From the NCBI GenBank assembly GCA_001513075.1, contig LFSE01000058.1, forward strand, positions 1 through 49,915: a stretch of 49,915 nt of DNA. Direction: 5' to 3'. The translations under genes were made by a program, and so were the position numbers. Under the pieces are notes generated by a model. That model was not told where the DNA came from. It worked only from the letters and a program-made list of their open reading frames with translations, and searched no databases. Shown one piece after another: positions 2,472-22,685 of this stretch. This stretch comes from Clostridiales bacterium DTU074 (GTDB lineage Bacteria > Bacillota > Clostridia > Caldicoprobacterales > Caldicoprobacteraceae). The number at the start of each line of letters is the position of its first letter. The stretch's first letter is position 1.

Positions 2472-3578
2472 CTAACCATACAACCTTACGGGCAATACAA
2501 GATAACAAAACTGTTCTCCTTCAATAGGACGTATTATACACGGACTTACGTTTGTTGTAAAATCCAGACATATTTCCTGTTCCTTCATTACTTTAAGGAC
2601 ATCCAACAAATAACGGGCATTGAAGGCAATTTCAATATTTTTTCCTTCAAGTACAATTGGTATTTCTTCATAGATTTTTCCGATTTCCGAATTTGATGTA
2701 ATTATCAGTCTGTCATCCTGAATATTTAATTTAATTAAATTATTTTCCAGCTCCTGCGCCATAAGTGAAGCCCTTTCCACGCTCTGATACAGAAGAAGTG
2801 TATCAATCTTTATCCTAGTTTTGTACTCCTGTGGTATTATTTGTCTATAATTTACAAATTCTCCTATTATTAACCTGGATATTATCTGTGTATTTACCGT
2901 ATCAAATATAATGTGTTTAGGGCCCACACTTATCCCCACATTTGTCTCATCATCGGTTAAAATTCTGCTGATCTCGTTCAACGCTTTTCCGGGGACAATC
3001 ATGCTTATATTTTCGCCGGTTTCCGGCAGCTCTTCCTTTCTAAGTGCCAACCTGTATCCATCAAGACATACCATATAGATCGAATCGTACTGAATTTCGA
3101 TCAAAGCACCGGTTAGTATCGGCCTTGTTTCATCAGAAGCAACAGCAAATATGGACTGCTGTATCATGCTCTTCAGTATATCCTGCTGTATATATATAGG
3201 TCTGTTTCCTTCTACCTGTTCTACTTCCGGATACTCACTCGGGTCCAGGCCCTGTAATGTAACTAAACTGTTTTGCGATTTAATTTCCACCTGGAATCGC
3301 TCATTAAGCTGTACCGTTATGTCGGCTTCGGGAAGTCTGCGCACAATATCTCCGAAAACTCGGGCAGGCATTACTACAGAGCCTTCTTCGATTACTTCAG
3401 CGGGTATATTGGTTTTAATGGTTAACAGATCCTGATCACTGCCTACCATGCAAACCATATTATCCTTCGCTTCAATGAGAAAACCTTCCAGTATTGGAAC
3501 GTTAATCTTGGATGATATCACTCTCTGTATAATCGATATTGCCGTTGATAATTTTTTCTGACCACATTTGAATTTCAT
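2472..3578 (-). CDS. dnaN: DNA polymerase III beta subunit (sliding clamp)
   Basis: Ring-shaped dimeric clamp that tethers the replicative polymerase to DNA. The 368 residues give the usual three-domain length. The start MKFKCGQKKLSTAISIIQRV, the internal EGFLIEA and the C-terminal end YLVLPVRLYG are typical; the C-terminal PVR segment forms part of the partner-binding pocket. The ATG at 3578 has AGGAGG six bases upstream. It is separated from dnaA by 187 bases that appear to contain the origin-unwinding module, so its ribosome binding site lies next to the AT-rich unwinding segment. Confidence 0.98.
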   Translation of the reverse strand: MKFKCGQKKLSTAISIIQRVISSKINVPILEGFLIEAKDNMVCMVGSDQDLLTIKTNIPAEVIEEGSVVMPARVFGDIVRRLPEADITVQLNERFQVEIKSQNSLVTLQGLDPSEYPEVEQVEGNRPIYIQQDILKSMIQQSIFAVASDETRPILTGALIEIQYDSIYMVCLDGYRLALRKEELPETGENISMIVPGKALNEISRILTDDETNVGISVGPKHIIFDTVNTQIISRLIIGEFVNYRQIIPQEYKTRIKIDTLLLYQSVERASLMAQELENNLIKLNIQDDRLIITSNSEIGKIYEEIPIVLEGKNIEIAFNARYLLDVLKVMKEQEICLDFTTNVSPCIIRPIEGEQFCYLVLPVRLYG

Positions 3579-3765
3579 GACATACCTCCTATAACTGATG
3601 AGTATAATATTAGTTTATAGTAGTAATAGTAGTAATAGCTGTGAATATGTGAATTATTGTGTCGAAAGGCGGTGGATCCACAAAAATTATGTGGATAGTC
3701 TGGGGATAACTTGTGCCTTTCCGCATGCAATTTCATAAGTATCAATTCAGGATACAATTTGGTGG
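3579..3765 (-). other. Origin unwinding module between dnaA and dnaN
   Basis: Read on the dnaA-dnaN strand, the spacer holds DnaA-box-like sites (TTATCCCCA at 3709-3701, CTATCCACA at 3698-3690, and weaker TAATTCACA and ATATTCACA sites at 3656-3640). These are followed by a ladder of TAC/TAT triplets, which on the plus strand is the repeat TAG TAG TAA TAG TAG TAA TAG at about 3619-3639. Next comes an AT-rich stretch running into the dnaN ribosome binding site. The order boxes, DnaA-trio, AT-rich DNA matches the basal unwinding system described for Bacillus subtilis oriC. The sites are seen directly; origin function is inferred. Confidence 0.75.
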
Positions 3766-5097
3766 CTAGCTCTCCTTTATTTTTTTTATCAATTCATCAA
3801 TTGTTTTGCTCAGTTTTTGATTTTTTTGTATATCCTGCTGTATCTTATCGTAAGCATGGATGACCGTGGTATGATCTCGTCCGCCGAATTCTTCACCAAT
3901 TTTAGGCAGGGACTGGTCTGTGAGCTCTCTACTGAGGTACATAGCGATCTGTCGCGGATAAGCGATAGACCTGCTCCTCTTTTTTGATTTAAAGTCCTCC
4001 ACCCTGAGATCATAATGTTGTGCCACCACCTGCTGGATTAGGGGTATCGTGATCTCCTTGGGCTGTGTGTTGGACAGTATGTCCTTCAAAGCTTCATCCG
4101 CTATGGAAAGACTTAATTTATTGTTAGTAAGAGAAGCATAGGCCATAATTCTTATTAGAGCTCCCTCGAGTTCCCGGATGTTGGATTCGATCCGTTTTGC
4201 GATAAAAAGCAGTATTTCATCGTCTATGTCTATGTTTTCTAATTCTGCCTTCTTCTTCAATATGGCGACTCTGGTTTCAAGATCCGGAGGCTGGATGTCA
4301 GCAATTAAGCCCCATTCAAACCTGGAGCGCAATCTGTCCTCAAGGGTCGGGATTTCTTTTGGCGGACGGTCGCTTGATATAATGATCTGTTTGTTTGCCT
4401 CATGCAAAGCGTTAAACGTATGGAAAAATTCCTCCTGCGTTCTCTCCTTTCCGGCAATAAACTGTATATCGTCTATTAAAAGTATATCTATGGTGCGGTA
4501 ACGATTGCGAAATTCTACGTTTTTGTCATCCCTGATCGAATTAATTAATTCGTTGGTAAACTTTTCAGATGTAACGTACAGCACTTTGGCGTTGGGATTA
4601 TGCGAAAGAATAAACTGCCCGATGGCATGCATCAAATGAGTTTTGCCCAATCCAACGCCACCGTATATGAATAAGGGATTATAGGCTTTGGCCGGCGATT
4701 CAGCAACCGCAAGACAGGCTGCATGAGCAAATCTGTTGCTGTTGCCCACAACAAATGTATCAAAGGTGTATTTTGGGTTCAGAATGCTGTGGGTATAGTT
4801 GTTATTTATATCTTTCGGGCTCATTGATTCCAAGAATGAATCCACTTCATTCTCAAGAATGAATTTTATAAAGATGGAAGTGCCGGTAACTTCCTTTAAA
4901 GCGCTTGATATCGTATCTATGTACCGTGATTGTAAAATATTTTTCGTAAATTCGTTGGGGACGCTAAGTATAATTTCATCGTCTCTTATAATCAATGGCT
5001 GTATTACTCTAATCCAGGTATCAAAACTGACGTCGGACAGCTGTATTTTAAGATTTTGAAGGGTTTTCTGCCAAATATCGCTGATGTTTTTATCCAT
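3766..5097 (-). CDS. dnaA: Chromosomal replication initiator DnaA
   Basis: AAA+ initiator that binds DnaA boxes and opens oriC. The 443 residues show domain I (about 1-85), a short linker, Walker A GGVGLGKT (146-153), Walker B LLIDDIQF (206-213), and domain IV with [15 protein letters not shown] and the DNA-binding signature [15 protein letters not shown]. The ATG at 5097 is preferred: AGGAGG lies nine bases upstream, while the in-frame TTG at 5103 is only three bases from it. DnaA boxes lie both upstream of the gene and between it and dnaN, so autoregulation is likely. Confidence 0.98.
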
Positions 5098-5103
5098 AAC
5101 CAA

Positions 5104-5434
5104 AAACCTCCTAAAGAATGTGGGAAAACCTACTAAATAATATTCTAGCCATATTTTAGAATAATATATAGCAAAGGCATCCGACTATAGTGAATCGGAC
5201 AAAAATGTATATCGGGATATTAAGTTATTAACATTATTCACAAGATGAAAAATCCTGCAAATTAAAATTTTTTAAAACGGAACAGGCAAGTTATACACAA
5301 AGTTATCCACAGAATGTGTATAACTAAAAAAATTTCTTCAATAATAAATATCAAAAGGACAATAGAGTTATCAACAGTAACTATATAATATCAGATAATC
5401 TGTGGATAATCAATTGTTGATAAGTTTTGATTTC
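5104..5434. other. DnaA-box cluster upstream of dnaA (second origin segment)
   Basis: AT-rich non-coding DNA between divergent dnaA and rpmH. Directly visible DnaA-box matches are TTATTAACA 5225-5233 (weak), TTATTCACA 5234-5242, TTATACACA 5291-5299, TTATCCACA 5303-5311 (perfect), the reverse-strand box TGTGTATAA 5315-5323, TTATCAACA 5368-5376, the perfect reverse box TGTGGATAA 5401-5409, and TGTTGATAA 5415-5423. With the dnaA-dnaN spacer this gives a bipartite origin like that of Bacillus. The last boxes abut the rpmH promoter, so DnaA binding could also affect that operon. Confidence 0.85.
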
Positions 5435-5464
5435 TTGACATGCCGCTGAAGTTTCGCTTATAAT
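5435..5464 (+). promoter_or_regulatory. Sigma-A promoter of the rpmH operon
   Basis: Perfect -35 TTGACA (5435-5440), 18-base spacer and perfect -10 TATAAT (5459-5464). Transcription would start near 5471, giving an unusually long leader of about 260 bases before rpmH. The -35 element is only 12 bases from the last DnaA box (5415-5423). Confidence 0.88.
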
Positions 5465-5729
5465 ACTAACGTATAGAAGGAGGGCAAAGCAGGATTCAAT
5501 ATTTTTTTGTTAACCGGTTGTGGAAACGTACTACTTAATATGTGGGAAATTTTGTTAAGATGGATGTGAGCCGGGCTAAGTCTTGTTTACTAGAAATGGA
5601 AAAGCAATTAGTGTGGAAGGAGCCTGCATTTTCTGTTTTGGCTTCATCAATACGAAGGGGTCCATTTTCCGTTGGGATGGTAGGATGTAGCAAGGACATA
5701 AAGCATTTTATATCGAAGGAGGACATGAC
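5465..5729 (+). other. Long rpmH leader with a possible 63-codon upstream ORF
   Basis: The transcribed leader holds an open frame from GTG 5542 to TGA 5733. Its last bases read ATGACATGA, so its stop overlaps the rpmH ATG in an ATGA arrangement. I do not recognise the product, and no clear ribosome binding site precedes the GTG. A strong GGAGGG at about 5479-5484 has no nearby start codon in this frame. It could be a coupled leader peptide or chance; otherwise I see no defined element here. Confidence 0.3.
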
Positions 5730-5864
5730 ATGAAAAGAACGTTTCAGCCAAAAAACAGGCAAAGAAAAAAGGAACATGGTTTTAGAAAAAGGATGAGGAC
5801 AAGAAGTGGTCGTATGATAATCAAAAGAAGAAGAAGAAAGGGAAGAAAGGTGTTAACAGCATAA
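5730..5864 (+). CDS. rpmH: 50S ribosomal protein L34
   Basis: A 44-residue, extremely basic protein starting [20 protein letters not shown] and ending KGRKVLTA, the standard L34 sequence and length. The ATG at 5730 follows GAAGGAGG with seven-base spacing. It is the first recognised gene of the operon rpmH-rnpA-yidD-yidC-jag, driven by the consensus promoter at 5435-5464. Confidence 0.97.
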
Positions 5865-5931
5865 GGCCGCTATGAAGTGGCCTTTTATAACTGATGAATG
5901 TTGCTCAAATTGTTCCTGGAGAAGAAACGTC

Positions 5932-6276
5932 GTGAAGAAAATATTTAGATTGAAGAAAAGAGCAGATTTTAATCGTACTTACAAGAAGGGCAGATCAACA
6001 GCCAATGCATTTTTCGTTTTGGTCTATAGGAAATCGGGATTGCCAGTTACGCGAGCGGGATTTGCTGTAAGTAAAAAGTATGGGAAATCGGTAAAAAGGA
6101 ACAGGATAAAGCGACAGTTGAAGGAGATTTATCGTCATAGGATTCCTCTTATAAAAGAGGGCTTTGATTTGATATTCGTTGTGCGCAAGAATGCACGGGA
6201 TTTGGAGTTTTCCGAAATGGAAAGAGCGGTGGATGATTTGTTAAAAAGGGCCCGGCTCTATAAGGAGACGAGCTGA
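5932..6276 (+). CDS. rnpA: Ribonuclease P protein component
   Basis: Basic protein cofactor of the RNase P ribozyme that matures tRNA 5' ends. The likely start is GTG 5932 ([20 protein letters not shown], 114 residues), with GGAGAAG upstream. An earlier in-frame ATG at 5872 would add 20 residues unlike the family (MKWPFITDECC). The conserved RNR region is present as [14 protein letters not shown], after the typical FxxV/SKK segment ([11 protein letters not shown]). The gene is 67 bases behind rpmH and its stop is one base from the next start. Confidence 0.95.
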
Positions 6277-14182: not shown

Positions 14183-15040
14183 ATGGCAAAACGAGGCTTG
14201 GGAAAAGGTTTAGATGCTTTGTTATCTTCATACGGAGAAGTTGAAGGTAAGCAGGAAAATGGTTACATAAAAGAGATAAAAATAAATCAAATCGATCCTA
14301 ATACAGAACAGCCAAGAAAAAAATTTGATCAGGATAAAATTAACGAATTGGCAGAATCGATAAAACAACACGGAGTGGTTCAACCCATAATTGTAAAACC
14401 AAATAAAGACAGGTATTTAATAATTGTGGGAGAAAGAAGATGGCGTGCTGCAAGATTGGCTGGTTTAACTCATATTCCTGCTATAGTAAGGGATGTGGAT
14501 AAAAAAGAAATTGTGGAGATAGCTCTTGTTGAAAATATTCAGCGAGAAGATTTAAATCCGATAGAAGAGGCAAGAGGAATAAAGCAGCTTATAGACGAAC
14601 ACGGTCTTACACAGGAGGAAGTAGCCGAACGGATCGGCTGGAGCAGGCCGGCTGTAACAAATGCTTTAAGATTACTGACGTTAAGTGATGAAATAGTTGG
14701 ATACATTGAAGATGGGGTGATAACATCCGGGCACGCAAGAGCTTTATTGATCATAAAAGATGAGAAAATGAGAATACAACTGGCAAAAAAAATTATTGAG
14801 AATAATTTAAGCGTACGTGAAACTGAAAATTTAGCAAAAAAAATAAACGAAGAAAAAACGGAAAATAAAGATAAAAGAAAAAAAGAAAAACCAGGATATA
14901 TAAAAGAAATTGAGGAAAGATTGGAAGAATATTTGGGAACAAAGGTTATAATAACGCATGGAAGAAAAAAAGGAATAATTCAAATAGAATATTATAGCGA
15001 TATTGACCTGGAAAGAATAATGGAAAGGATGAAACAATAA
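14183..15040 (+). CDS. parB: Chromosome partitioning protein ParB (Spo0J)
   Basis: CTP-dependent DNA clamp that loads at parS and spreads, recruiting SMC to the origin. The 285 residues begin MAKRGLGKGLDALLSSYGEV, typical of Spo0J. Motifs are EQPRKKFD, the CTP-binding GERRWRAARLAGLTHIPAI, VENIQREDLNPIEEARGIKQ, and the HTH TQEEVAERIGWSRPAVTNALR. The C-terminal dimerisation domain follows a lysine-rich linker. Two perfect parS sites start three bases behind the stop codon. Confidence 0.97.
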   Translation: MAKRGLGKGLDALLSSYGEVEGKQENGYIKEIKINQIDPNTEQPRKKFDQDKINELAESIKQHGVVQPIIVKPNKDRYLIIVGERRWRAARLAGLTHIPAIVRDVDKKEIVEIALVENIQREDLNPIEEARGIKQLIDEHGLTQEEVAERIGWSRPAVTNALRLLTLSDEIVGYIEDGVITSGHARALLIIKDEKMRIQLAKKIIENNLSVRETENLAKKINEEKTENKDKRKKEKPGYIKEIEERLEEYLGTKVIITHGRKKGIIQIEYYSDIDLERIMERMKQ

Positions 15041-15042
15041 AA

Positions 15043-15060
15043 ATGTTTCACGTGAAACAT
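15043..15060. promoter_or_regulatory. parS site 1
   Basis: ATGTTTCACGTGAAACAT is a perfect 18-base palindrome containing the 16-base parS consensus (15044-15059). It begins three bases after the parB stop. Followed by five T, it could also fold as a terminator hairpin in the transcript. Confidence 0.95.
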
Positions 15061-15066
15061 TTTTAT

Positions 15067-15082
15067 TGTTTCACGTGAAACA
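15067..15082. promoter_or_regulatory. parS site 2
   Basis: TGTTTCACGTGAAACA, a second perfect parS palindrome, seven bases after the first (centres 23 bases apart, about two helical turns). Confidence 0.95.
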
Positions 15083-15151
15083 TTTCTTGGTGTGTGAAAT
15101 ATTATAGCTGCACCCGATTGATCATTTTTCTGGCTGTAACTACGCAGGCCT

Positions 15152-15856
15152 TTATAAATAGCCTCTGACCAAATTGGTGAAAATATTATATTCAAAGAAA
15201 AAATTGCCGAACATGGAGTTTTCAATATATTTATATATATTATCAAAAGGAGCTAAAGTCAGAACCATCGGAACCAGGGATGCGAGGAAAAAAATCAAAA
15301 ACATGCCATTAAGTATACCCAATGCTGCTGCGAATATCTGATCATATCGTTTGAGGACGGGTAAGCCTATAACTTCTTTTGCAATTGAAATAATCACCGT
15401 ACAAACAATTCTTATAACAACAAAAAGCAATAAAAAGCATAGCATGTTCAGTATTATGCATGCAATAGTATGGTCAAAATAATCTCCAATATTGTTTAGA
15501 TCATTAAATCTAAGTTCGTTTAAATTGCTGAACACCAGACGATTGAAAGGGGGCGGAAGCTTTGCGCGATCAACTATATTTGCTATCTGTTCATGATTCA
15601 ATGAGAACACAGAGGTAGCCCGTTCTTCGATTGATTCGATTCTTGAAGCGCCTTCGGTGAAATGAATGATTCTATCCAATAAGTCGGGGTATTTGTTTAC
15701 CAGCAGTCTGGAAAGAATCGGATAAAATAAGAGGGAGCCGGCCCAGGAAATACAAAAGGATAAAAAGCCCAGAACAGACACAACAAAGCCGTTATATATT
15801 CCGTATAGAGCCGATATAAATAAAATAATTAATACTAAATAGTCTATATAATTCAT
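15152..15856 (-). CDS. CvpA family membrane protein
   Basis: Integral membrane protein of 234 residues starting MNYIDYLVLIILFISALYGI and resembling the CvpA (colicin V production) family, whose members are linked to cell-envelope stability. Four hydrophobic segments are visible, at roughly residues 5-45 (two), 132-160 and 178-205, with a long charged loop of about 80 residues in between, which is larger than in short CvpA proteins. The start codon overlaps the stop of the upstream gene as TAATG, so they are co-translated. The 3' end faces parB across the parS sites. Confidence 0.8.
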   Translation of the reverse strand: MNYIDYLVLIILFISALYGIYNGFVVSVLGFLSFCISWAGSLLFYPILSRLLVNKYPDLLDRIIHFTEGASRIESIEERATSVFSLNHEQIANIVDRAKLPPPFNRLVFSNLNELRFNDLNNIGDYFDHTIACIILNMLCFLLLFVVIRIVCTVIISIAKEVIGLPVLKRYDQIFAAALGILNGMFLIFFLASLVPMVLTLAPFDNIYKYIENSMFGNFFFEYNIFTNLVRGYL

Positions 15857-16986
15857 TAATTTCCATCCTTTCGAATGTTAGATTTACCTAATACATATGT
15901 ATGCAGAAGATTATTTTTATCCACAACATATATGTTATTAGGTGAATAGGCTGTCCAATACAGTTTAGCAGGAGAAATATCCAAATTGTATCTCTTTTGT
16001 ATATATCCATTTTTATCAACAATTACAATATTGTTTTTTTCCAGGGCAATTATATATTCATTTTTATAAGTTTGCACGCTTGTTAAACCATTGGGGAATT
16101 CTTTTGTCTCCATCTCTCCTTTTTCGTTTATATAAATTGCGTTTGCCTTGTTGTATCTTGCATTATTAAAATAAAGCAGCATATCATTTTTAAAGTTGGC
16201 CTGACGGTGAATACAGCTATTAGGACCGTGTAAGGTCCATATATGGGAGCCATCAATATTGTAACACATTATCTGATGAATGCCAATTAGAACAATGCGG
16301 TCTTGCGTACTATAGATTTTATACAATGCAATATCGTCAAGAGACAGAACACCGTAGGGAGAGTTCCCATCGGTAAAGTGAAATACCCGTGTTGAAGGAT
16401 TGGGAGTATCGGTTGCTATGGTAAGAATGGATATTAATTTGTTTACGTCGCTATAAGAGGCATCTAGGAAAGAGGAGTGCTCCATACCGCTTAAATCGGC
16501 AGGAATATTATTACCCTTTTTTAGTAACTGAAGCTTTAACTGGTCACTGGAATCCTTTAACACAATCAAAAGCAAATCTCCAAATTCCTTGATATCCCAT
16601 CCATCAAAATCTCCAGGTATTTCATAGATCATTTCAAAGGGTATTGCGTAGGTATTGTAAATATACCTGTTATTTATTAGGGCATAGTTATCGGTTGATT
16701 TATTAATTATGGGTATATTTCCCATATTTTCAATATCCTGTTGTGTAAAGGGCAGACTCAATTCAGTCCCATCATAAGTATAAAAAGAGGTATCATCGGA
16801 TGTGACCGCAATTCCATTTCTGAAAAAATGTATTTTTGCATTATCGTCCAGTTGTATCGGTTCGGCAGATATAGAAGGGAATAAAGCATCCTGTCTGTTA
16901 AATATACTGGGCTTGAACAGGTATAATCCTCCGATAGCGACGGCTATTACAAACAAAAAAATCAAAAGTAACCTGGTATATTTCAT
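15856..16986 (-). CDS. Membrane-anchored protein, likely extracytoplasmic beta-propeller (DUF5711-like)
   Basis: A 376-residue protein from the ATG at 16986 (MKYTRLLLIFLFVIAVAIGG), with GGAGG five bases upstream. One membrane helix (about 4-24) is followed by an extracytoplasmic domain of repeated beta-strand blocks with a period of about 40-45 residues, such as FYTYDGTELSLP, MCYNIDGSHIWTLHG and IVIVDKNGYIQKRYNLD. This suggests a PQQ-like or WD-like propeller. I believe it resembles DUF5711 proteins found beside cvpA in Clostridia, but I cannot verify that. Its function is unknown. Confidence 0.65.
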   Translation of the reverse strand: MKYTRLLLIFLFVIAVAIGGLYLFKPSIFNRQDALFPSISAEPIQLDDNAKIHFFRNGIAVTSDDTSFYTYDGTELSLPFTQQDIENMGNIPIINKSTDNYALINNRYIYNTYAIPFEMIYEIPGDFDGWDIKEFGDLLLIVLKDSSDQLKLQLLKKGNNIPADLSGMEHSSFLDASYSDVNKLISILTIATDTPNPSTRVFHFTDGNSPYGVLSLDDIALYKIYSTQDRIVLIGIHQIMCYNIDGSHIWTLHGPNSCIHRQANFKNDMLLYFNNARYNKANAIYINEKGEMETKEFPNGLTSVQTYKNEYIIALEKNNIVIVDKNGYIQKRYNLDISPAKLYWTAYSPNNIYVVDKNNLLHTYVLGKSNIRKDGN

Positions 16987-17184
16987 TATAACCTCCGTAA
17001 CGAATAAACATAAGCAGTACAAAAAGTATCAATATATACAATTATTCGTCAGGATATGAAAAATTCCTTCAAAAAAACAGATACAGTTATATTTTTATTG
17101 CTTACAATACAATTGTGCAGCAAGATGGGCTTATGATATGTTAATTGTACGAGACGTTCACGACAAAGGTTCTGCTGACCGTTG

Positions 17185-17475
17185 TCAGAACAGGGGCTCA
17201 TACAGTCGGTTTTCAATTATATTAACGATGTCCTCCGTGCTTTTACCTCTGGCATTGATTAAAATTGCGCCGAACGGCTTTTGGTATGGATGTGTTTCAA
17301 ATTGTTGACTCAATAGCCGGTTTAGGTTGACTAAAGTATCGGCTTCAGCCTCTTGATAATATATTAGCGCGTCAATGGGTGAATTGATTTCGTCATAATA
17401 AAGGGTTTTGTACCCCAGCTTTTCCAAATTGCTCATTATTTGTTCCAAGCCCCTTTGGACCGCTATAATTTTCAT
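17185..17475 (-). CDS. UPF0180 (YkuS) family protein
   Basis: Small protein of 96 residues from the ATG at 17475 (MKIIAVQRGLEQIMSNLEKL), ending with IVNIIENRLYEP. The layout, an N-terminal sequence-helix unit, a central variable part, then a strand and a helix with STEDIVNIIENRL, matches the UPF0180/YkuS family of unknown function. GGAGG lies nine bases before this ATG; the in-frame GTG at 17484 overlaps that site. The ribosome binding site is part of an inverted repeat (17480-17514). Confidence 0.7.
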   Translation of the reverse strand: MKIIAVQRGLEQIMSNLEKLGYKTLYYDEINSPIDALIYYQEAEADTLVNLNRLLSQQFETHPYQKPFGAILINARGKSTEDIVNIIENRLYEPLF

Positions 17476-17479
17476 AAAA

Positions 17480-17514
17480 AACACCTCCGGTCATTATTTT
17501 GACCGCAAGGTGTT
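17480..17514 (-). promoter_or_regulatory. Inverted repeat covering the UPF0180 ribosome binding site
   Basis: Plus-strand arms AACACCT (17480-17486) and AGGTGTT (17508-17514), with a second stem GGTCA (17489-17493) and TGACC (17500-17504), and a CC/GCA internal loop. On the transcript the ribosome binding site of the gene at 17475 falls in the 3' arm. It may occlude translation, or it may terminate transcription from the DUF4446 gene that ends eight bases upstream. Confidence 0.55.
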
Positions 17515-17522
17515 ATAATAAT

Positions 17523-18026
17523 TCATCGGCTCATGGCTTTTTCGATTGCTTCAACTTCCTCCTGGGATAATGGATAATCTGAAGCTTTGTCTTTTATGGG
17601 TTTTGCATATATAGATGAAGAATGTCTGGTAAACAGGCCCGTTAATACAAGGCCGTTGCCTTTTTTGTCCAGCAATGCGGCTGAAAAACTCAAATCTCCG
17701 CCCATTTGTTTGAAAGGGTTATATCTTTTTACGCATACGTTTTGTATACATGATTCCAGGTTATTAACAATATCTTTATGATTTTTTTCCATTCTTTCGA
17801 TTCTGGCTATGGTGCTTTCTACAGAATCGATATGATTCAGCAGCATGGCTTCCAGGTTTTTGTTATCCATTCCCCTCATTAGTCTTTTATATTTTCGGAT
17901 TATATTTCTGGTTCTTGCGGAATTTATAATGGCAATAATCAGGGACAATATTGATAGAGTTATAGCAATGATGACTATTATATAATCGTTATCATTTATT
18001 ATTTGAATAATGTCATAAATGTTCAT
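17523..18026 (-). CDS. DUF4446 family membrane protein
   Basis: A 167-residue protein from the ATG at 18026 (MNIYDIIQIINDNDYIIVII), with GGAGGG seven bases upstream. It has one membrane helix (about 14-37), a charged coiled-coil-like stretch (RKYKRLMRGMDNKNLEAMLL on to about residue 95), and a conserved C-terminal domain with RYNPFKQMGGDLSFSAALLD and YAKPIKDKASDYPLSQEE. This is the DUF4446 pattern, often found near parB in Clostridia. Its function is unknown. Confidence 0.85.
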   Translation of the reverse strand: MNIYDIIQIINDNDYIIVIIAITLSILSLIIAIINSARTRNIIRKYKRLMRGMDNKNLEAMLLNHIDSVESTIARIERMEKNHKDIVNNLESCIQNVCVKRYNPFKQMGGDLSFSAALLDKKGNGLVLTGLFTRHSSSIYAKPIKDKASDYPLSQEEVEAIEKAMSR

Positions 18027-18062
18027 AAATACACCCTCCATTCTAGAAGCGGCTTTAGTCTG

Positions 18063-18935
18063 TCAGTAATATACGAGAATGGGTTTATCGGATATTGAAA
18101 ACCGGACGGGGGTTGTTGTTATAATATCACCATCTCCATTTACCGGAAGATTTTCATTGCTTTTAATATTGATGCTTTTGCATCTGAATGTTGCAACATA
18201 GGGCAGATCAAGATGCTGTCCTTTTATAAACTTTGGAAACAGAAACGGGAAAAGGTAACGGGGAACGGGCTTTATTAATATTACATCAATATATCCATCA
18301 TTGATTGAACCCATTGGGTTAACATACATTCCTCCGCCGTAGTGTGTTCCGTTGGCTATAGCAAGAAGGAGTATGGGAGTTTCGAATTCTTTGCCGTCGA
18401 TTTCGAGATAAACATATTTATCCCTATAAGTAAAAAATTTTAATAATGCAGATAAATAATAGGCCGTCTTTCCTGAAATCCAGCGCTTCATTTTTTCAAT
18501 ATCGCGAGCTATTTCAGCATCGAATCCGACACTGGCCACGTTAAAAAAGTATTTATTCCCGTAATTAATTGTGTCTATTAGCTTTGTTCTGCCGTTTGTT
18601 ACAATATATAATGCCTTTTTGATATCAATGGGGATGTTTAAGGCTTTTGCCAGATCATTTCCAGTTCCCAGCGGTAATATACCAAGTGGGATCGAGGAAC
18701 CGGTCAGGCCGTTGGCAACTTCCATTACTGTACCGTCTCCACCCACCGCAATAATACCGTGGAAACGAGGGGAGGATATGGCATCCCTGGCCAGTTCGGT
18801 GGCATGTCCTTTATATTTGGTCTTTATTATGCTATATTCAACACTGCGTTGCTGGCAATATTCTTCAATTAAAGGAAGGGCACGAAGAGTTGAGCCGCTT
18901 CCGGCAATTGGGTTGACTATAAACAGTAGCTTCAT
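18063..18935 (-). CDS. Diacylglycerol kinase family lipid kinase (YegS/BmrU-like)
   Basis: Soluble lipid kinase of 290 residues. The start MKLLFIVNPIAGSGSTLRAL and the nucleotide-binding motifs VGGDGTVMEVANGL and PLGILPLGTGNDLAKALNIP are diagnostic of the DAGK catalytic domain. The C-terminal half (YVYLEIDGKEFETPI, GGGMYVNPMGSINDGYIDV) matches the second beta-sandwich domain. The substrate could be diacylglycerol or another lipid; the sequence does not decide this. It lies upstream of the DUF4446 gene on the same strand. Confidence 0.92.
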   Translation of the reverse strand: MKLLFIVNPIAGSGSTLRALPLIEEYCQQRSVEYSIIKTKYKGHATELARDAISSPRFHGIIAVGGDGTVMEVANGLTGSSIPLGILPLGTGNDLAKALNIPIDIKKALYIVTNGRTKLIDTINYGNKYFFNVASVGFDAEIARDIEKMKRWISGKTAYYLSALLKFFTYRDKYVYLEIDGKEFETPILLLAIANGTHYGGGMYVNPMGSINDGYIDVILIKPVPRYLFPFLFPKFIKGQHLDLPYVATFRCKSINIKSNENLPVNGDGDIITTTPVRFSISDKPILVYY

Positions 18936-18967
18936 AATCTCTTTCCTTCGCTTTTTATTTTATACAC

Positions 18968-20308
18968 TTAAAATAAATATTTGTTTCGCCTTCTTCGTCT
19001 GCTGCTGCGGATAATATATATAATTATGATTAACACTATAAAACCAATGAAAAGCAGTTCTACGGGTACATCATATCCAAATAATTGGACGTATTCAACT
19101 GCTTTGCCGGTATCGGTAGCCGGTTGCTGTTCTTCTTCCGTCTCAGGCTGTTCCGGGACTGAAGGAGTTTCTGTAGGCTCATTCTCGGGGGGCGGGGGAG
19201 TCAGGCGGACAATCTCTTCTTTTATCCAGTCTGAAAAAATAACATTATTTTTTACTGTAGGCTGGATTTGTTTCAGATATTCCAGGACTTCCTGGTCGTC
19301 GCCTTTAAGGCCCAGTAAAAAAACCTTATCGTATATAATTTTATTCCGAACTATATTGGAGAGCTGACTGTGATTGTTAAATCCTGGATTGTTTTCGATT
19401 CTATCAAATATATCCAGCGCCATGCCTGGTTGGTACAGAGCAAGATGACAGAGAGCCTTTACGTATTCCAGCTCGGTTTTTAGCTCGGTATCAGGATTCT
19501 CAGTCAAATAATTTGTTATTTCATCGATGACAGTATCGTAATCTTTGTTTTGATAGAGAGCCACAATGTTTTTTATTTCCCGGTTATTATTTGCCTCCTG
19601 GTTCAGGTAGTTAGCAACACATGCTTCAACAGGGGTAAAATAGATTACTAAGTCCTGTGGTTCTTTAACATCGGTTAACTGCCACAATAGACGTCCTCCT
19701 CCTTCATATTTCAATGGAAGCAAGGAGGGATTTGGTTCAAAAACATACGGGGGATAAAAATCCAGGTCGGCAACAACCTGAAGATATTTTATAGGGATCT
19801 CCCAAAAATTAAGCATGCTTAGCGGGAAATATACGGTCTGCTGTCCGATTTCGCCGATCTTATTATCCATAGTATAGGACGATTCTATTACTTTGGATTC
19901 TCCCGGACCCAATTTTATCGAAAGAGTTGACCATGTAGGCGGCATGAATGTATCGGTTGATTCGGAGTTCGGGGCGGAACGCAGTACGGTTAGTTTTTGA
20001 GTTTTTCCTTCGATTATCACTGAACTCTGTTTAACGGTAACAACGGAATCCAATTGAGAGGGAACGCCAATTAAGAGATTTGTTTCAGATAGCCCGTCAT
20101 TTCTGATTACCATGGAGGTATTTACGGAGGTAAAACCGATACGTACCCTTAAATTGACATGAAAAGACACCAATGTTATGTTATCTGCCTGAGTCAGAGA
20201 CACCCTTCTTCGGGATAACTCAAGAGGAAGCTGTATCGCGTAAGCAGGCGAGGCAAATACAAACATCAGAACCATAAGTAAAACGGTGGCAAAGAGTTTT
20301 CTTTTCAA
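18968..20308 (-). CDS. Secreted, C-terminally membrane-anchored protein of unknown function
   Basis: A 446-residue protein from a TTG at 20308 (MKRKLFATVLLMVLMFVFAS), with GGAGGGGG just upstream; the longer frame from 20332 reads through that site. It has a signal peptide ending near ASPAYA, a beta-rich domain (about 25-230), and a helical domain with TPR-like spacing (about 240-370) where YQNKDYDTVIDEITNYLTEN resembles a TPR helix pair. A Pro/Glu/Thr-rich linker, one membrane helix (LLFIGFIVLIIIIYII), and a basic tail (SSRRRRRNK) follow. I do not recognise a named family. The topology suggests an envelope sensor or scaffold. Confidence 0.75.
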   Translation of the reverse strand: MKRKLFATVLLMVLMFVFASPAYAIQLPLELSRRRVSLTQADNITLVSFHVNLRVRIGFTSVNTSMVIRNDGLSETNLLIGVPSQLDSVVTVKQSSVIIEGKTQKLTVLRSAPNSESTDTFMPPTWSTLSIKLGPGESKVIESSYTMDNKIGEIGQQTVYFPLSMLNFWEIPIKYLQVVADLDFYPPYVFEPNPSLLPLKYEGGGRLLWQLTDVKEPQDLVIYFTPVEACVANYLNQEANNNREIKNIVALYQNKDYDTVIDEITNYLTENPDTELKTELEYVKALCHLALYQPGMALDIFDRIENNPGFNNHSQLSNIVRNKIIYDKVFLLGLKGDDQEVLEYLKQIQPTVKNNVIFSDWIKEEIVRLTPPPPENEPTETPSVPEQPETEEEQQPATDTGKAVEYVQLFGYDVPVELLFIGFIVLIIIIYIIRSSRRRRRNKYLF

Positions 20309-20399
20309 CTTTTTCCCCCTCCAATAAAACAAAAACCGGCGACATTATTAGTATTATCATTTAGTCTAGCATAATTGAACCTAAAGGACAAGAATTGAT

Positions 20400-21554
20400 T
20401 TATGGTTCTTCCTTAACAAAAAGATGCGATATAAGAGCACCAATCAATCCGGTTGCAGCTGATACTAAAAAACCCCAGAGAAGCTTTGCTGCATCGCTTA
20501 TAACACCGGTAATTACCGGTCCCATGAACATGCCTAAACCGTAAATAGCCTGAAAAAACCCCATTGCAGTTGCGCGTTTTGAACTATCTATGGATTTTAT
20601 ACACAAAGACATGAGGAGGGGAAACAACAAACCGCGTCCCAAACCACCTATGGCCTGGGATATATACAAGATGTTAATATCCTTTGAAAATGGAATCACT
20701 GCACAGGAAGCCGATATAATTATAAAGCTTGCTACAATAACTCTCTTTTCCCCAAACCGCTTTGCAACTACTGATCCGCTTATAGCCGATGAAAATATAG
20801 TCGGCAGCGTTGAAAAGGCGGTCAGAAGGCCAAGCTGTGCATCGCTTGCTCCGATTTGTTTTGCTGCAACCGGCGTAAAACCGTACACCGTAGCAAATGT
20901 AATGAATTGAACAAGAATGGCCAGGCCAGAAACAATCAGCAAATCTCTGTTCCCGGCAACAGAAAGCAACTGGGGTACTGTCAGGGGTTCCCGATCCATC
21001 TTTCGCTGTTCGAAGATGCCGAAACTTATTGCAAGCCCAATAACACCGCTTATTGAGGCGGCTAAGAATGTGGCTTCTTGTCCGAATCGCTGTGCTGCAT
21101 ATCCGCCTGCCAGCATGGCTGACATCTGGCCAAGGGCGCTGAATGCATTTATTATGCCCAGGGCTTTTGCCGTGTCTTTCTGTTCAAAATAACTGGAGAA
21201 CAGTATGGTATAAGCTACCCAGGATGAAGCAGCAACCCCTGATAAAGAGCGGAATAGAAGGATCATGGCGGGTTTTTTGAAAAACCACATACCCAGACTG
21301 CTTACGAGGGAACTTACAATTCCCAGAATTATAAACAGCTTTCGATTGCCCATTTTATCGGACATTACGCCGAGGGGTATCCTCAGAAGCATCTGAGCAA
21401 AGCCGTATGAGCCTATAATCATGCCCACCATCTTATGGGAAGCGCCCAGGGCTTCAGCATAGGGAGACAATATGGGTACATAAGTATATAGCGAAAACCA
21501 ATACAGGCCAGTTACAATGCAAAACAAGGATACACGGTATGTATTCTTTTTCAT
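20400..21554 (-). CDS. Major facilitator superfamily transporter
   Basis: A 384-residue, 12-helix transporter from the ATG at 21554 (MKKNTYRVSLFCIVTGLYWF), preceded by AAAGGTG. The open frame runs 65 codons further upstream with no ribosome binding site and a non-membrane sequence. MFS motif A is present as GVMSDKMGNRKLFII after helix 2, and a degenerate copy SGSVVAKRFGEKRVIV follows helix 8. The substrate is unknown. It resembles drug/sugar antiporter-type MFS proteins. It diverges from the MoxR cluster. Confidence 0.88.
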   Translation of the reverse strand: MKKNTYRVSLFCIVTGLYWFSLYTYVPILSPYAEALGASHKMVGMIIGSYGFAQMLLRIPLGVMSDKMGNRKLFIILGIVSSLVSSLGMWFFKKPAMILLFRSLSGVAASSWVAYTILFSSYFEQKDTAKALGIINAFSALGQMSAMLAGGYAAQRFGQEATFLAASISGVIGLAISFGIFEQRKMDREPLTVPQLLSVAGNRDLLIVSGLAILVQFITFATVYGFTPVAAKQIGASDAQLGLLTAFSTLPTIFSSAISGSVVAKRFGEKRVIVASFIIISASCAVIPFSKDINILYISQAIGGLGRGLLFPLLMSLCIKSIDSSKRATAMGFFQAIYGLGMFMGPVITGVISDAAKLLWGFLVSAATGLIGALISHLFVKEEP

Positions 21555-21716
21555 CTTTTTGTCGCACCTTTCTATAACAATAATAACGATAATACATTTT
21601 AGCACAAAAAAAGGGCGATCCATAGTATTGTATTCATAATTATTTCGATGATTAGAGGAAATAAGAGATATACGGAGAAATATATTATAGACACATAAAA
21701 AAGGAGATGGTAACGA

Positions 21717-22685
21717 ATGCAATTTAGCCATATCTATGATTTGGCCCAAAGGGTGAAAGCCAATATACGGCGCGTCATTGTCGGCAAGGAGGAGATAATC
21801 GATCTACTGCTGGTATCGCTGATATCATCGGGCCATGTACTGCTGGAGGATGTGCCCGGAATGGGAAAGACATTGCTGGCAAAATGCCTTGCCAAATCCC
21901 TGGATTGCGATTTTAAGCGGATTCAGTTTACCCCCGATTTGCTTCCCAGCGATATAAGCGGAATCAATTATTTCAATCAAAAGCTGGGTGAATTTCAATT
22001 CCGGCCCGGGCCAATATTTACAAACATACTGCTGGCCGACGAGATAAACAGGGCTACGCCAAGAACCCAATCCAGCCTTCTTGAATGTATGGAGGAACGG
22101 CAGGTTACCATTGATGGCGAAACGATGAAGCTTAAGCGGCCCTTTATGGTTATAGCAACACAGAATCCTGTTGAGATACAGGGGACGTTTCCTCTTCCGG
22201 AAGCTCAGCTTGACCGGTTTTTGATGAAGGTGTACATGGGCTATCCGACAACAGAAGAGGGTGTGGAAATCTTGATGAGATTTAAGGAGCAAAATCCCTT
22301 TGAGGATATTCCGTGCGTAGCAACGGGAGATGAAGTTATAAACGCTCAGCAGGACTATGTAAAGGTTTATGTATGCCGTGATATTATCAGATATATCGTC
22401 AGTATCGTGGAAATGACCAGAAAGCACAACGATGTTCACCTGGGAGTAAGCCCCAGGGGCAGTCAGGCACTGTTAAAAGCCGCTCAGGTTTATGCTATAC
22501 TACAAGGAAGGGATTATGTTATCCCCGATGATGTTAAGGCAATGGCAAAACCCGTACTCAGGCACAGAATGATTTTGAGAAGTGCTATAGCCATTAAGGG
22601 AAGCCAGGCTGATGATGTAATCGATTATATTCTGAAGGAAGTGCCCGTGCCAGCCGAAGAACAGCTCTGGAAGAGAGAAGGATGA
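21717..22685 (+). CDS. MoxR-family AAA+ ATPase
   Basis: A 322-residue AAA+ chaperone-like ATPase starting MQFSHIYDLAQRVKANIRRV, with AAGGAGATGG upstream. Motifs are Walker A DVPGMGKT (about 45-52), FTPDLLPSDISGINYF, Walker B ILLADEINRATPRTQSSLLE, sensor 1 VIATQNPVEIQGTFPLPEAQ, and DRFLMK. MoxR proteins usually act on metal-centre assembly or envelope processes together with DUF58/VWA partners, as encoded directly downstream here (three-base gap). Confidence 0.93.
   Translation: MQFSHIYDLAQRVKANIRRVIVGKEEIIDLLLVSLISSGHVLLEDVPGMGKTLLAKCLAKSLDCDFKRIQFTPDLLPSDISGINYFNQKLGEFQFRPGPIFTNILLADEINRATPRTQSSLLECMEERQVTIDGETMKLKRPFMVIATQNPVEIQGTFPLPEAQLDRFLMKVYMGYPTTEEGVEILMRFKEQNPFEDIPCVATGDEVINAQQDYVKVYVCRDIIRYIVSIVEMTRKHNDVHLGVSPRGSQALLKAAQVYAILQGRDYVIPDDVKAMAKPVLRHRMILRSAIAIKGSQADDVIDYILKEVPVPAEEQLWKREG

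Follow-up and report, generated by a model that had tools for sequence, protein, structure and literature searches.

The 187-bp gap between dnaA and dnaN of Clostridiales bacterium DTU074 holds DnaA boxes, a ladder of triplets and an AT-rich segment, and we conclude that this stretch is very probably a basal unwinding system (BUS), the unwinding core of a bipartite Firmicutes-type oriC. A preliminary description of the DNA had proposed a DnaA-trio unwinding module in the same order and orientation as in Bacillus subtilis; the proposal is supported by the sequence elements and their non-randomness, by a geometry conserved in relatives, by the trio-contacting residues of DnaA, by a switch in nucleotide skew at the gap and by the presence of loader genes. 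A BUS in a dnaA–dnaN oriC is in itself ordinary, as the kind is already known from Bacillus and Clostridioides, and predictions of a BUS extend to the majority of bacteria (1755 of 2070 origins; PMC8287927). The less expected part is a possible gate at the unwinding platform that Spo0A, a regulator of sporulation, would operate; conservation and a match to the consensus point to it.

Triplets, tandem boxes and their conserved register

The window, that is, the whole stretch of 49,915 nucleotides that was analysed, belongs to an assembly of 2.56 Mb in 138 contigs, and the closest named relative of the host by DnaA is Firmicutes bacterium UBA3930 (91% identical DnaA). Profile searches and open reading frames placed dnaA (3766–5103; TIGR00362, 605 bits) and dnaN (2472–3578; TIGR00663, 303 bits) on the minus strand, in a run that continues with a small S4-type gene, which we take to be yaaA-like, recF and gyrB. 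Read from dnaA to dnaN, the gap contains box-like sites, the triplets TAGTAGTAATAGTAGTAATAG and then 39 bp with a GC content of 28% (3579–3617), which run to the AGGAGG ribosome binding site (3585–3590) and the ATG of dnaN.

Direct reading of the plus strand located seven consecutive TAG/TAA triplets, TAGTAGTAATAGTAGTAATAG, at positions 3618–3638; the triplets are thus present between dnaA and dnaN as first described, one base off from the position given there (3619–3639). On the dnaA strand, no run of [CT]TA triplets in the intergenic region exceeds these seven. When the gap was shuffled 20,000 times with its dinucleotides preserved, no run went beyond 5 (two cases), and 60 shuffled versions of the full window gave runs of at most 4. 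The pattern (TAR)7 was found once in the 2.56-Mb assembly, with no occurrence of the reversed control. When the published BUS search rules (PMC8287927) were applied to both strands of the window, all matches with at least three consecutive [CT]TA trios corresponded to the ladder at 3618–3638.

Two DnaA boxes on the minus strand, each with two mismatches against TTATCCACA, form a tandem pair next to the ladder: box 1, TAATTCACA, at 3648–3656 and box 2, ATATTCACA, at 3640–3648, the CACA of which is invariant in the alignment. We compared the dnaA–dnaN gaps of 30 host-lineage genomes and 40 named Bacillota; in this set, loci of named Bacillus, Clostridium and Terrisporobacter served in place of the B. 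subtilis oriC sequence. In a uniform fit to 68 relatives, from the host genus out to Bacillus and Clostridium, the box-pair offset was 8 bp in 55 of the 68, the best-fitting spacer was 4 nt in 57 of the 68, and the commonest trio count was six. These counts are lower bounds on conservation, since the automatic fit fails in some relatives (0–2 trios), chiefly distant members of Lachnospiraceae and Paenibacillus but also L021, a genome of the host order whose ladder is obvious on inspection. A strict version of the geometry occurred once each in 25 of the 30 host-order genomes (reversed control, 0), and nine genomes outside the host order, among 391 genomes of the class, also carry the BUS pattern.

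In this conserved register, the minus strand of the host reads box TAATTCACA, box ATATTCACA, GCTA and TTA CTA CTA TTA CTA CTA. The six DnaA-trios, 5'-TAGTAGTAATAGTAGTAA-3', therefore occupy 3618–3635 of the plus strand, as indicated by the sequence itself, its uniqueness in the genome, the shuffles and the register in relatives, and read away from the boxes they are 3'-AAT GAT GAT AAT GAT GAT-5' on the strand that is expected to be bound as single-stranded DNA. The six-trio register in relatives places the seventh triplet (TAG, 3636–3638) in the 4-nt spacer at 3636–3639 (5'-GCTA-3' on the minus strand), a position that fits both the relatives and the alignment. Accordingly, of the ladder of seven trios that had been proposed, the seven triplets are real, whereas the conserved arrangement consists of a 4-nt spacer and six trios, and we retain the count of seven as a description only. 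The spacer of most relatives is GCCC, GGCC or AGCC and is degenerate in the host genus and family; in the host, it has the expected 4 bp but only two of the four are G or C, and the published BUS search fixes the length of the spacer, not its composition. The GCTA spacer, which is not GC-rich, and the weakness of the boxes count against the BUS reading.

That the boxes are weak, as noted in the preliminary description, holds for the trio-proximal pair; there it was also suggested that the trio may carry much of the specificity. The host order as a whole tends to have weak first boxes, while the pair hardly varies in its geometry; in named Bacillus loci, which follow this plan too, the first box is perfect. 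The published search asks for at least one DnaA box with no more than two mismatches at 0–16 bp from the trios, and the distances of ATATTCACA and TAATTCACA to the first trio of the six are 4 and 12 bp. Either box also provides the second, adjacent box, for which up to four mismatches are allowed, at the spacing seen in relatives, and in place of the minimum of three 3'-NAN-5' trios (consensus 3'-GAT-5'), the host has six or seven consecutive perfect G/A-A-T triplets. Further from the ladder, the gap contains an inverted weak box, GGATCCACA, with two mismatches (3674–3682, plus strand), and two stronger minus-strand boxes with one mismatch each, CTATCCACA at 3690–3698, the ATCCACA of which is invariant in a 10-sequence alignment, and TTATCCCCA at 3701–3709; upstream of dnaA there is also a cluster in which two boxes are perfect. 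For the box at 3701–3709, TATCCCCA was found in 15 of 27 host-order intergenic regions and in none of 42 others, as if a weaker, non-consensus box were being kept.

The distance from the last trio to the dnaN start is 39 bp in the host and 33–42 bp across the order (25 genomes). A putative melting segment of about 40 bases that runs into the translation start of dnaN, as previously described, is thus typical of the order; the range of 33–42 bp rules out an unusually short melting segment.

The protein that would act on these elements is also conserved. Between host DnaA and the B. subtilis protein of structure 8btg, identity is 61% (267 of 438 aligned residues). The two agree at N187, I190, I193, R202, K222, E228 and R264 (B. 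subtilis numbering) and throughout the GRDHTTV segment that reads the box. Among these residues, N187, I190, I193, R202 and E228 have been reported to contact or separate the bases of the trios (PMC10721633), and all five are thus retained in the host.

The Spo0A-box consensus beside the box pair

An exact Spo0A-box consensus, TGTCGAA (TTCGACA on the minus strand), lies within oriC at 3660–3666 of the plus strand, 3 nt from box 1. This sequence is the Spo0A-box consensus given for B. subtilis, in which Spo0A~P binds oriC, and Spo0A has been reported to bind oriC and to limit copy number in that species (PMC5295017). In families f1 and f4, the TTCGACA island preceding box 1 is shared by 17–18 of 18 sequences at each column, compared with 6–10 of 18 just outside. 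Counting one genome beyond the alignment, 17 of the 19 genomes in the two families keep the same spacing to box 1. The composite pattern of Spo0A box and BUS was found in 11 of 391 class genomes, all belonging to the host order, and TG[TA]CGAA was not found in the dnaA–dnaN regions of the 40 named Bacillota. Nothing relevant on a degenerate Spo0A consensus came up in a search of the literature.

Two Spo0A proteins (413 and 337 bits) are encoded in the host genome, and the DNA-binding domains of both are intact and align closely to Spo0A structure 1lq1. These full-length paralogues are located at L151:947–1786 (contig C132) and L152:1022–1795 (contig C110). Two long Spo0A matches above the family cut-off were observed in 24 of the 30 host-order genomes, with a partial second copy in one more, and most of the other class genomes listed have one match; an order-wide duplication of spo0A is possible. 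Exact Spo0A boxes precede spo0A (–64) and spoIIAA (–149), and none was found before spoIIE or the second spo0A.

The conserved Spo0A box suggests that sporulation control may act on the unwinding platform. We give an even chance to the possibility that the BUS is gated by sporulation, with Spo0A~P at 3660–3666 stopping DnaA from nucleating on the BUS boxes, such that sporulating cells would not re-initiate; gating of this kind would add to the BUS reading and does not contradict it. The exact match to the B. subtilis consensus, the 7-mer island beyond which conservation drops, the fixed spacing, the restriction of the composite to the host order, the Spo0A proteins with a 1lq1-type domain, the exact boxes before spo0A and spoIIAA and the reported action of Spo0A at the B. 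subtilis oriC all argue for it. Moreover, the centre-to-centre distance between the Spo0A box and box 1 is 11 bp, about one helical turn, so that Spo0A bound at 3660–3666 would crowd DnaA on the same face of the helix. However, the chance of a given 7-mer in the gap is 2% by composition alone, the site is absent from families f2 and f3 although both encode Spo0A, and the candidate site could control dnaN transcription instead. A promoter scan of the dnaA–dnaN gap revealed no convincing dnaN promoter. More tentatively, one exact Spo0A site at a fixed BUS spacing might let Spo0A~P directly switch off opening, a task that the two paralogues might divide.

TTCGACA might instead be no more than a degenerate DnaA box, the third in the platform, an explanation that we regard as rather unlikely. 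The site is in tandem with the BUS pair and overlaps only one box-like site, CTTTCGACA, which is three mismatches away from the DnaA consensus, and C. difficile has been described with three boxes before its trio (PMC7561715). Nevertheless, the invariant G (CGACA) is off the DnaA-box consensus and is exactly that of the Spo0A consensus, which argues against a degenerate DnaA box, and the neighbouring boxes drift within the DnaA consensus whereas TTCGACA does not. If it works as a Spo0A site, the gap would offer a compact origin in which competition between Spo0A and DnaA at the platform could be studied with three components; the authors of the C. difficile work state that a role of Spo0A at the origin was not assessed in that species.

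Nucleotide skew, duplex stability and the place of opening

The cumulative GC skew turns at position 3600. On its own, this turn might stem from gene direction, but dnaA and dnaN share one orientation. The coding-strand GC3 skew was +0.24 for dnaN, +0.28 for recF, +0.11 for the gyrB fragment and +0.23 to +0.38 for five plus-strand genes; among the nine genes, it was negative in dnaA alone (–0.10; others +0.11 to +0.38). The reversal is what would be seen if dnaA were copied by the rightward fork, head-on to transcription, with the two forks separating at the dnaA–dnaN junction, and it places the origin there. The box and trio elements thus lie beside dnaA and dnaN at the skew switch. GC3 skew was higher in dnaN than in dnaA in 22 of 28 genomes (Wilcoxon test, P = 0.0003, an optimistic value because the genomes are related); that the contrast appears in only 22 of the 28 counts against the BUS reading. 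In the right arm, at 15001–22000, GC skew drops near zero and the sign of AT skew flips, followed by a later rise, which may reflect an insertion or an inverted segment.

By nearest-neighbour stability, the least stable 27 bp of the region 3400–6000 begin at 3603 (0.11 percentile of the window); the AT-rich segment at 3579–3617 and the trios together are likely to be the duplex-opening element. However, larger windows and a rough superhelical model, a one-run approximation with copolymer energies, favoured 5319–5393 over 3600 in domains that include 5319–5393. On thermodynamic grounds, therefore, several AT-rich sites compete for opening, and the upstream site ranks higher in large domains.

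This upstream site lies beside the boxes of an oriC1-like cluster at 5225–5423, which contains perfect TTATCCACA sequences at 5303–5311 (plus strand) and 5401–5409 (minus strand). A perfect sigma-70-type promoter (TTGACA-18-TATAAT, 12/12) at 5435–5464 of the plus strand sits just past the cluster and directs away from dnaA. The more numerous and better boxes and the highest computed superhelical opening would favour initial opening upstream of dnaA, in the AT-rich DNA at about 5319–5393, with the trio region secondary, but this is very improbable: the BUS-rule scan of the window found no trio ladder beside the cluster, the reversed skew of dnaA puts the parting of the forks on its downstream side, and that is also the side on which the origins of C. 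difficile and B. subtilis open (PMC7561715, PMC6669920). The idea that the ladder is a functionless microsatellite, due to chance or of the slippage type, can practically be dismissed, since the triplets, period-3 and of low complexity as they are, keep their register to the boxes where DnaA is just 60–70% identical, and (TAR)7 is unique in the genome.

Proposed mechanism and comparison with known systems

By analogy with B. subtilis and C. difficile, the tandem boxes at 3640–3656 would be where bound DnaA nucleates an ATP-dependent oligomer, which would cross the spacer onto the plus-strand trios at 3618–3635 with one triplet per subunit. The trio strand would be stretched, and duplex opening would extend across the trios and the AT-rich DNA as far as the ribosome binding site of dnaN, probably assisted by looping from the upstream cluster at 5225–5423. 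The helicase would then be put in place by a loader of the DnaD/DnaI type, whose genes lie outside this region of the genome. Genes for a DnaD-like protein, a DnaI-like ATPase and the replicative helicase (DnaB) are located together on contig C51, and their presence makes a B. subtilis-type helicase loader likely in the host. The DnaD/DnaB-like loader gene beside those for the DnaI-like ATPase and the helicase (L118:3411–4937, minus strand) encodes 508 aa with four DnaB_2 repeats; the DnaD/DnaB-type proteins of B. subtilis have one or two. Repeats of the form TnnT, like those in the DnaD recognition element (PMC10201434), are present on the strand facing the trios; CTA repeats generate them automatically, so that they do not count as independent evidence.

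The origin closely resembles the bipartite plan of C. difficile, in which P1 nuclease mapped unwinding to the dnaA–dnaN region beside CTACTACTATTACTACTA, downstream of dnaA, and both parts of oriC are needed (PMC7561715). The ladder of C. difficile oriC2 is near-identical (CTACTACTATTACTACTA versus TTACTACTATTACTACTA in the host) and occupies the same place, with an upstream cluster, oriC1, which the trio-less upstream cluster of the host matches. The two differ in spacer sequence, and unwinding has been shown in C. difficile, whereas the host is known from its sequence.

The Spo0A box also has a counterpart in B. subtilis, another Spo0A-encoding lineage with TGTCGAA in oriC next to DnaA boxes (Boonstra et al. 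2013, via PMC5295017). In contrast to B. subtilis, the host has one exact box that adjoins and does not overlap the BUS pair, and its spacing is fixed across two families.

With the B. subtilis BUS (incC: boxes 6/7 and DnaA-trios), the host shares the dnaA–dnaN position, the orientation, the tandem box pair, the spacer, the trios, the AT-rich DNA and the DnaA contact residues. It differs in its weaker box 1 (two mismatches, against a consensus sequence given for box 6 in B. subtilis), its GCTA spacer in place of a GC-rich one, a first trio of AAT instead of GAT when read in the conserved register, and a short distance from the trios to dnaN. An unwinding system that has been proposed as ancestral is thus very probably present in an uncultured clostridial order, and its comparative register, with an 8-bp box offset, a 4-nt spacer and six trios, fits the B. 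subtilis structure of six trios and seven DnaA subunits.
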